This document shows, piece by piece, positions 6,639-18,622 of a stretch of DNA of 38,934 nt. The position numbers and the translations under genes were made by a program. The DNA comes from Candidatus Zambryskibacteria bacterium RIFCSPHIGHO2_01_FULL_46_25 (GTDB lineage Bacteria; Patescibacteriota; Minisyncoccia; Phycocordibacterales; Zambryskibacteraceae): NCBI GenBank assembly GCA_001825155.1, contig MHVH01000003.1, forward strand, positions 50,941-89,874, given 5' to 3'. Each line of letters begins with the position of its first letter. Position 1 is the stretch's first letter. The notes beneath the pieces are model-generated. The model worked only from the letters and a program-made list of their open reading frames with translations, ran no database searches and was not told the DNA's origin.

Positions 6639-7094
6639 GTGCCAAATTACAAAAAACCCCGAACCCCCTGCCTCGTGTGTGGCAATGAGCCTGCTTACGC
6701 AGGGTACAAGTACTGCAGTAATAAATGTCAGCTGCAATACCAGAGAAATATTTATCTCGAGAAATGGAAATCCGGCAAGATAAGTGGTTTACAAAGCTTA
6801 GGGATTGTTTCTACAGTGATAAAGCAGTATTTAAGAAAAAAGTATGGGAATAAATGTTGTCTGTGTGCATGGTCGCAAGTTAATTTAAAAACTGGTAAAG
6901 TTCCTTTAGTTGCCGATCATATAGACGGCAACTGGCGCAATAACAAAGAGGGAAATCTTCGTTTAATTTGTCCTAACTGTGATGCGTTGCTACCTACCTT
7001 TTCTGCTTTAAATAAAGGAAGGGGTAGAGAAAATAGAGCTCCAAGCAAAAGGGCTCAAGAAGCAAGAGAATATTTGAAAAATTTGCCGAAGTAG
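6639..7094 (+). CDS. HNH endonuclease
   Basis: GTG start; zinc knuckles (CLVC, CSNKC, CCLC, CPNC) and HNH core VADHIDGNWRNNKEGNLRLICPNC. Confidence 0.85.
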   Translation: MPNYKKPRTPCLVCGNEPAYAGYKYCSNKCQLQYQRNIYLEKWKSGKISGLQSLGIVSTVIKQYLRKKYGNKCCLCAWSQVNLKTGKVPLVADHIDGNWRNNKEGNLRLICPNCDALLPTFSALNKGRGRENRAPSKRAQEAREYLKNLPK

Positions 7095-7157
7095 CTCAGT
7101 TGGTAGAGCGGCAGTATCGTAAACTGCAGGCCACCGGTTCGATCCCGGTCTTCGGCT
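7085..7157 (+). tRNA. tRNA-Thr(CGU)
   Basis: GCCGAAG/CTTCGGC acceptor, GCAGT ATCGTAA ACTGC anticodon arm, TTCGATC T-loop. Confidence 0.93.
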
Positions 7158-7166
7158 CAGTCCATA

Positions 7167-8068
7167 TGGCAACCAAAGAAGAAATCCAGGAAAAAATAGA
7201 AGAACTCGAAGCGGCCATGGCTGGCGCGGATTTCTGGTCGGATAAAGACCGAGCACAAGCTTCCATAAGGGAACTTCAGAATCTCAAAGACGAACTCGAG
7301 GGAGTAGGCAAGTACGACAAGGGTGGCGCCATCATGACCATCTTCTCCGGCGCTGGTGGCGACGATGCGGAGGATTTCTCGAGAATTCTGCTTGAGATGT
7401 ATCAGAAGCTTTTCGAAAAGAATAAATGGAATTATTCCGTAATTCACAAGAATGAGAATGATCATGGAGGATATCGGAACGTGACCCTCGAAGTACCCCC
7501 CCTTGATAAAGGGGGCGGAGGGGGATTAGGTCCCTATGGCATTCTCAAAAACGAGTCCGGCGTGCACCGCCTGGTGCGCATCTCTCCCTTTAACGCATCC
7601 CAGAAGCGCCACACATCTTTCTCCATGGTTGAAGTGATTCCGAAATTCGATAAGACGGAAGAAATAAAGATTCCGCCGGAAGATTTGAAAGTGGAACTCT
7701 CGAGAGCCAGCGGCCCAGGAGGTCAGAATGTTAATAAAAGAGAAACCGCCGTGCGGCTCGTCCACATTCCGACCAATCTAGCCGTTCACGTCGAGAGCGA
7801 GCGGAGCCAGGCGCAGAACAAGGAGATGGCACTCCACATGCTCGAAGCCAAGCTCTACAAGCTCCGTGAGGAAGAAAGAGTGGCGAAGGAGAAGGGTATG
7901 TATATATCAAAGACAACCCAAATAGAGTGGGGGAGCCAAATCCGTTCCTATGTCCTCCATCCGTACAAGCTCGTCAAGGACCATCGCACAGGTGTCGAAA
8001 CCGCCCAAGTGGAAAAAGTGCTAAACGGCGAATTAGATGAATTCCTTGAAGCGGAGAAGAATTTGTGA
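7167..8068 (+). CDS. prfB: Peptide chain release factor 2
   Basis: GGQ motif SGPGGQNVNKRE and SPF anticodon tripeptide. Start placed at 7167 because the upstream part of the track ORF is tRNA. Confidence 0.93.
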
Positions 8069-8080
8069 TAATCTAGCCAA

Positions 8081-8500
8081 ATGTTAAAAATCAGGTTGCA
8101 AAGAGTAGGGCGCAAGCACGAGCCGTCTTTCAGGCTTGTTTTGACCGACTCCAAGAACTCGACCAAGTCCGGTCGCTTAAGCGAGGTGCTCGGCTCCTAC
8201 GATCCTCGAAAGACGATTGAGTCTTTCAATACCGAGAGGATCAAGCACTGGCTCGCCCGAGGCGCCGGTCCGACCGCAAGCATCAATAACCTTCTCATCA
8301 AGCACGGCATCATCCGTGGCAAGAAAATCCACGTTTCCACTGTGCCTGCGGCACAACCGACAGCTGAACCCATTGCTATTGCGGAAGAGCCGGTTGAAAC
8401 TCCCCCTGCCAAGGGGGAGCAAGAGGGGGTTGAAATTCCTTCTGCCGAAACGTCTACTATTACCGAAGAAACTCCACAAGAACCCGAACCCCAGGTATAA
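8081..8500 (+). CDS. rpsP: 30S ribosomal protein bS16 with C-terminal extension
   Basis: MLKIRLQRVGRKHEPSFRLVLTDS...; next to khpA-like gene and trmD. Confidence 0.95.
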   Translation: MLKIRLQRVGRKHEPSFRLVLTDSKNSTKSGRLSEVLGSYDPRKTIESFNTERIKHWLARGAGPTASINNLLIKHGIIRGKKIHVSTVPAAQPTAEPIAIAEEPVETPPAKGEQEGVEIPSAETSTITEETPQEPEPQV

Positions 8501-17033: not shown

Positions 17034-18622
17034 ATATAGCCGAGGTTGTCGGGGGATACGTCAAACTTGAGAAAGCGGGCCAGAGCTTCAAAGCGCGATG
17101 TCCCTTCCACAGCGAGAAAACGCCGTCGTTCTTCGTCTCGCCGGCGCGCCAGAGCTATTATTGTTTCGGCTGTGGCGCGAAGGGCGATATCTTCACTTTC
17201 GTTGAGCAGTCCGAGGGCGTTGACTTCAAAGAGGCGCTGAAGATTCTTGCCGACAGGGCCGGAGTTGAGCTCAAACGCCGCACGCCGCAGAGCATCGCCG
17301 AGCACTCCGAGAAAGAGAAAATCTTTCTCGCTCTCGAGGATGCAACACAGTTCTTTGAAACGCAGTTGAAAGAAAATGATGCTGCTCGCAAATATCTGGC
17401 GTTGAGAGGTATAAGCGATGGGTCTGTGAAGGACTGGCGTCTTGGCTACGCGCCGGCCGAGTGGCGCTCGCTTTATGCTCATATGCTTGAGAGGGGATAT
17501 GGCGAGGAGATTCTTCTCAAGGCTGGGTTAATCAAAAAAGTGCCCGTTGGTTCTGACGCAGCTGCCCCGCAGCTACGTCAGCCATATGACGTCTTCCGCG
17601 ACAGGCTCATTTTCCCGCTCAAAGATTCTTCCGGCCAAGTCGTCGCCTTCTCCGGCCGCGCGCTGGCGAAAGAGTCCGAGCCGAAGTATCTCAACAGTCC
17701 GGATACAGTTGTCTTCAAGAAACATGAAGTGCTCTATGGTCTCGACAAAGCCAAGGAGAAAATTCGTCGCAAGGACTACGCCGTCTTGGTGGAAGGACAA
17801 ATAGACTTGGTAATGTCGCATCAAGTCGGAATTGACAATGCTATCGCATCGTCTGGAACAGCATTTACCGCCGCGCACCTTGAGCGTCTTAAGAAACTTT
17901 CGAAAAGAATCATTCTTGCGTTTGACGGAGACAAGGCCGGCGCCGCCGCCGCAGATAAGGCAACGGAACTTGCCTTATCAATGGGCCTTGAGGCAAAGAT
18001 TGCCAGATTGCCGGAAGGGGAAGATCCGGCCGAGGTGGCAAAGGATGATGCGACAAGATGGAAGGAAGTCTTACGCCAATCCAAGCCAGCCATAGAGCAC
18101 TTTCTTGACTTGGCGCTCGAGAGCGAGCCAGACCACAGGAAGTTAGGCAAGCTCATAGAGAAGAAAATTTTGCCGCTCATAGTGCTTCTCGAGAGCTCGA
18201 TAGAGCGTTCGCATTTCGTCTCACTCATCGCCAAGAGAACAGGCATCAAAGAGGACATTGTGTGGGAGGATTTGAAGCGGGTAAAAATTTCTCCCCCTGC
18301 CAAGGGGGCTGAAAAGGCATGGGATGCCTTTTCAGAGGGGGTCAGTGAAGTAAAGAATAGGAAAGAGCAATTACAAGAAAGACTAAGCGAAGTGAGATTG
18401 TGGTTGAAGGAGGTATCGGAAGACACGGACTTCAAGAAGGAAGAAGCGGAACTTGAGAACAATCTCGCGCAGGAGATTATCAAGGATGAGCTCGGCGCCG
18501 TGCTTGTATCATTGTCTGCCGCCGAAACGTCTAAGGACAATGAGAGGGTAGAGGAACTGGCCAGGCGCGTCAAAGAGCTTCATGGCGAGATAAGAGCGCT
18601 GGAAATAAGGAAAGAGGTGTAG
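16997..18622 (+). CDS. dnaG: DNA primase DnaG
   Basis: CPFHSEKTPSFFVSPARQSYYCFGCGAKGD zinc finger and TOPRIM VLVEGQIDLVMSHQ / FDGDKAG. Confidence 0.95.
   Translation: MGGDVETIKERLDIAEVVGGYVKLEKAGQSFKARCPFHSEKTPSFFVSPARQSYYCFGCGAKGDIFTFVEQSEGVDFKEALKILADRAGVELKRRTPQSIAEHSEKEKIFLALEDATQFFETQLKENDAARKYLALRGISDGSVKDWRLGYAPAEWRSLYAHMLERGYGEEILLKAGLIKKVPVGSDAAAPQLRQPYDVFRDRLIFPLKDSSGQVVAFSGRALAKESEPKYLNSPDTVVFKKHEVLYGLDKAKEKIRRKDYAVLVEGQIDLVMSHQVGIDNAIASSGTAFTAAHLERLKKLSKRIILAFDGDKAGAAAADKATELALSMGLEAKIARLPEGEDPAEVAKDDATRWKEVLRQSKPAIEHFLDLALESEPDHRKLGKLIEKKILPLIVLLESSIERSHFVSLIAKRTGIKEDIVWEDLKRVKISPPAKGAEKAWDAFSEGVSEVKNRKEQLQERLSEVRLWLKEVSEDTDFKKEEAELENNLAQEIIKDELGAVLVSLSAAETSKDNERVEELARRVKELHGEIRALEIRKEV

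Follow-up and report, generated by a model that had tools for sequence, protein, structure and literature searches.

Palindromic elements of Rickettsia and Wolbachia occur as several families per genome, lie in frame within essential genes and contribute peptides to exposed regions of the encoded proteins (PMC3767692, PMC10969869). Different groups of these Rickettsia palindromic elements (RPEs), which are about 100-150 bp long (PMC3767692), have been found near one site in orthologues (PMC3767692, PMC10969869), and for different elements at one gene position in Rickettsia the choice between a hot spot and divergence from a single insertion was left open (PMC3767692). MITEs and intragenic ERIC-type elements are non-autonomous and can form in-frame fusions with genes of the host (PMC10969869). 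A literature search that missed most subscription journals yielded no earlier report of coding palindromes in Patescibacteria.

Here we describe a palindromic insert in prfB, the gene for peptide chain release factor 2 (RF2), of a Patescibacteria genome, and by analogy it is best read as a miniature, Rickettsia-palindromic-element-like insertion at a tolerant RF2 loop. Like RPEs, the Patescibacteria units are palindromic, repeated in the genome and placed in frame within pre-existing genes of unrelated function; because they measure 16-42 nt, they are not classed as RPEs. They belong to another phylum and are compared by features, and the units that occupy the same site in RF2, unlike RPEs, are clearly unrelated and tied to the repeats of their own genomes. 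As regards exposure of the peptide, the insert falls in the inter-strand loop of a low-confidence predicted model, where RF2 homologues have a short turn. The resemblance to REPs and REPINs with their RAYT (TnpA-REP) genes lies in the short, often paired palindromes and in the Y1 transposases that the genomes encode. REPs, however, are mainly extragenic, whereas 8 of the 11 copies inspected here are genic, and REPs flank their own RAYT gene, whereas the five Y1_Tnp loci here carry other palindromes. With MITEs and ERIC-type elements the repeats share their non-autonomous nature and in-frame fusions with host genes, but they are far shorter, and no structure of terminal repeats plus internal region was seen in them.

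The insert in prfB

The window, meaning the whole analysed stretch of 38,934 nt, belongs to a 582-kb genome in 7 contigs, to which Ca. Zambryskibacteria MAGs are the closest named relatives. The following features define the locus:

7166..8068, + strand: prfB (peptide chain release factor 2, RF2), intact open reading frame from ATG at 7166 to TGA at 8066-8068, with GGQ and SPF motifs
7487..7534, + strand: RF2 loop region, LEVPPLDKGGGGGLGP (16 residues), flanked by GYRNVT and YGILKNESG; most relatives have 8 residues here
7498..7527, + strand: palindromic repeat unit CCCCCTTGATAAAGGGGG-CGGA-GGGGGATT, 30 nt, in frame, PLDKGGGGGL

The top PDB matches of the prfB product are RF2 structures (E 3e-69). 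A preliminary description of this DNA had proposed an in-frame palindromic element between intact, in-frame RF2 motifs, and both parts hold: the gene is open throughout, and the element at 7498-7527 is a dispersed repeat of the genome. The peptide and coordinates given there were right as well, while the quoted DNA was one C short, the run having seven C rather than six. Positions 7493-7531 read GTA CCC CCC CTT GAT AAA GGG GGC GGA GGG GGA TTA GGT, and the region translates as ...LEV-PPLDKGGGGGL-GPYG... Compared with synonymous versions that encode an identical peptide, the insert forms a more stable RNA hairpin (z -2.1, p 0.02); when DNA folding parameters and dinucleotide-shuffled controls are used, z reaches only -1.6. 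A plasmid search left the repeat unmatched.

At the insert position, PDB structures of RF2 show a short turn and align to the insert with gaps. In the predicted RF2 model, which is weak overall (mean pLDDT 68.5), the loop joins strand 103-110 to strand 132-139, and confidence is low at 116-119. Such a strand-loop-strand placement would be expected of an exposed turn.

Upstream, a tRNA-Thr(CGT) gene (7085..7158, + strand) ends 7 nt 5′ of the prfB start codon and leaves almost no leader space. A tRNA-Thr(CGT) gene directly 5′ of prfB, often adjoined by tRNA-Thr(GGT), is found in many genomes of the order and represents a conserved neighbourhood (loci L006, L009, L012, L014, L017, L021, L022, L027, L181, L182, L097 and L105).

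Copies of the repeat across the genome

The insert is more than a chance palindrome, because its 18-nt stem CCCCCTTGATAAAGGGGG recurs genome-wide, with two exact and two one-mismatch occurrences, while the reversed pattern gives 0. A genome-wide search for the element, which the preliminary description had proposed, returned nine sites for the stem pattern CCCCCTN{2,9}AGGGGG in the 582-kb genome, 0 for the reversed control and 0-2 in congeners. Among the 11 copies inspected, eight lie in frame within genes (prfB, rpsP, dnaG, polA, cysS, mnmA, a DUF192 gene and a TPR membrane-protein gene), and the remaining three are intergenic or beyond recognisable genes. The repeats fall into two subfamilies, CCCCCTTGATAAAGGGGGNNNNGGGGGATT and CTCCCCCTGCCAAGGGGGAG...GAGGGGGTT, the second of which is read in one frame (KGE) both in cysS here and in the ribosomal protein L3 gene of another genome of the order (G013). 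Three further copies are specified as follows:

8400..8431, + strand: CTCCCCCTGCCAAGGGGGAGCAAGAGGGGGTT, a copy of the second subfamily; in frame within rpsP (8081-8500), at the C-terminal tail, TPPAKGEQEGV
18291..18342, + strand: dnaG copy, in frame, SPPAKG-AEKAWDAFSE-GV; host gene assigned by its DnaG domains
Inside the TPR membrane-protein gene (L002): second unit, CCCCCTTGATAAAGGGGGTTGGGGGATT

The cysS insert is absent from congeners G001 and G004, and the bulk of the stretch that corresponds to the mnmA insert is missing from MnmA structures. The spacer of the dnaG copy itself holds CTGAAAAGGCATGGGATGCCTTTTCAG (18309-18335), a palindrome with 12-bp arms and thus a nested in-frame element, which encodes AEKAWDAFSE. 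As a separate observation on cysS, the CysRS of several congeners (L157, L158, L169, L171, L172, L175, L176) apparently has no C-terminal domain, unlike that of the window's genome; the congener matches stop near query residue 222, at an in-frame stop, and the open frames span about 400-530 aa.

Occupants of the RF2 loop in other genomes

The order-wide scan covered 397 genomes, in 153 of which the prfB pattern was matched and scored. Between GYRNIT and YGTLKNESG the loop has exactly 8 residues in most relatives, while about 21 of the 153 carry long loops of 12-28 residues, whose excess length is always a multiple of 3 nt. A loop of equal length that aligns, holds no repeat and is shared by all close relatives had been named beforehand as evidence against the proposed element; this is not what we see, since most congeners have an 8-residue xGKNx-YG loop. 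A phylum-wide scan for long loops matched the window's own genome alone, with a pattern that may not fit the RF2 of other classes.

Many of the long loops are different, unrelated palindromes:

G026 prfB loop: CCTGCCTGCCGGCAGGCAGG
G008 prfB loop: CGCCTGCCGGCGAGGCAGG
G050 and G136 prfB loops: AATCCGCCAGCTGGCGGA
G266 prfB loop: tandem TCCGCCAAAGGCGGATCCGCCTCGGGCGGA
G363, G281 and G021 prfB loops: CTTCGACTCGCTCTGCTCGCTCAGG types
G022 and G049 prfB loops: CTTCGACAAGTTCAGG types
G005, G007, G013 and G256 prfB loops: CTTCGC..AAGGCTACG types
G324, G303 and G344 prfB loops: CCCCAC..GCGGGG

In G303 one palindrome is nested within another at the loop, and a second RF2 loop has an additional SAKGGPASGG insert. 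Several other long loops lack a palindrome (G112, G172, G036, G094, G334, G291, G225), and the site therefore also takes, or decays to, ordinary sequence. The insertion in G136 substituted a few native bases and was not a clean addition; loop comparisons by eye revealed no consistent target-site duplication. Besides its true prfB, whose loop of 21 residues belongs to the CCCCAC...GCGGGG family, G344 encodes a divergent second prfB-like gene (L098, G344:C4:1619-4319; match G344:C4:2919) whose loop holds AATCGATCAATTGATTCGGG.

In the cases counted, the palindrome in prfB is one that is abundant in the same genome, for instance TCCGCCAGCTGGCGGA, the TCCGCC...GGCGGA tandem pairs and TTCGAC...GCTCAGG; this match between occupant and genome was examined for the TCCGCC..GGCGGA and TTCGAC..GCTCAGG families only. 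Copies of the former number 15 in G050, 13 in G136 and 15 in G266 (controls 0 each), the prfB copy being part of each set; the tandem-pair units of G266 number four, and prfB holds one. G058, a congener of G136 with a short loop and no insert, has 3 copies and 0 exact ones. TTCGAC..GCTCAGG occurs 14 times in G281 and 7 times in G363 (controls 0), and 0 times in the short-loop relative G260.

These repeats also enter genes of other functions. The exact G136 palindrome lies in frame in dnaE, a relA/spoT homologue, topA, cysS, rpsI and the genes for PBP2 and a lactamase-fold protein, with a variant in dnaK; G266 has tandem units in atpA and dprA, and the copies of G050 include those in leuS, tgt, dus, a CMAS-family methyltransferase gene and a class II aldolase gene. 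Where the 16-nt palindrome of the TCCGCC..GGCGGA type is coding, 14 of 16 copies are read in the PPAGG frame (p 1.2e-5, assuming three equal frames and from a count made post hoc, after the data had been seen). Such a bias is consistent with translation, after which purifying selection would remove copies read as SASWR or RQLA.

Origin of the inserts

The insert in prfB very probably represents one copy of a small palindromic repeat, non-autonomous and lodged in a tolerant loop of RF2, and unrelated families very probably reached the same site independently in other lineages. The repeat, possibly selfish or neutral in nature, would have spread through the window's genome, and one copy would have entered prfB in frame, at what is presumably a surface turn of the RF2 β-hairpin, to be translated as an 8-residue extension. 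We propose that it was retained because the loop tolerates insertion, and the same tolerance may underlie the recurrence at this site, which would have taken up several unrelated palindrome families, each apparently abundant in its genome.

Could a single long loop ending in GPYG, ancestral or transferred, have given rise to all of these, its palindromes swapped or diverged in place with few true insertions and much turnover? Several features speak for such a history. Gly-Pro precedes the invariant Tyr-Gly in nearly all palindromic loops and in 0 short loops; in 7 of the 17 GPYG loops the codons around this motif fold into a second hairpin, more strongly than synonymous sequences would, and short loops as a group show no such hairpin. 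Moreover, G281 and G021, genomes that belong to different families, share a highly similar 54-nt stretch, and the test does not reject one clade for the five long loops of the window's genus taken by themselves (p 0.059). When the loop is left out, however, the tree of 86 prfB proteins requires at least 22 changes between the long and short states; a 49-gene prfB subset, likewise without the loop, requires 15 and rejects the grouping of the 17 long-loop genes into one clade (p-AU 2.7e-40). The GPYG ending itself changes at least 15 times on the tree, and clean exceptions end in VYG (G008, G171 and G266). Nor is the GPYG hairpin a dispersed repeat of its own: of its 14 matches in 397 genomes, 6 fall in prfB, which leaves 8, a number close to the 5 obtained with the control. 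Finally, the loop occupants are unrelated and match the repeats of their own genomes, which argues for repeated arrival. We therefore consider a single ancestral loop unlikely; the GPYG pattern may stem from templated changes upon insertion or partly from common ancestry.

How would the independently arriving repeats have moved? An enzyme that works on hairpins of single-stranded DNA could have mobilised them in trans, with the genome's Y1 (RAYT-type) transposases as candidates, a route to which we give somewhat less than even chances; template switching at hairpins would be an alternative. Five RAYT-like Y1_Tnp genes (L036-L040) are present in the 0.58-Mb genome, and the prfB-type repeat lies beside none of them. 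Because these loci are flanked by other palindromes, we can only infer trans movement by Y1. The palindromes near most of the Y1_Tnp genes include TGCAACACCGAGTGTTGCA, ACCAAGGCAAGGCCTTGGT and CATCGTGCCGACCGGCACGATG. The genomes compared showed no mobility of the repeat.

A functional regulatory element of the prfB mRNA, serving for example the control of RF2 synthesis, would account for a stable hairpin within the coding sequence, and prfB is autoregulated in many bacteria. This reading is highly improbable: the families differ, most relatives have no insert and some long loops no hairpin, the same repeats occur in unrelated genes, and an Rfam search returned only the tRNA and one sub-threshold match, with none for the prfB hairpin. 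An ordinary hypervariable loop, slippage in C/G runs or an assembly artefact, which the GC runs, the 7-contig genome and some plain Gly/Ser-rich long loops might suggest, is more improbable still, as complete repeat units recur in the genome (control 0), independent assemblies behave alike and reading frames are kept in all cases.

The in-frame copies show that reduced Patescibacteria genomes tolerate selfish-looking DNA within essential translation and replication genes, and coding palindromes offer an explanation for puzzling short insertions in Patescibacteria proteins. More tentatively, the RF2 β-hairpin loop might be a true hot spot for insertion throughout the order, with unrelated miniature palindromes continuing to arrive and to replace one another or nest. 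If so, a class of mobile palindromes, active and compatible with coding, would be reshaping essential proteins in Paceibacterial genomes.
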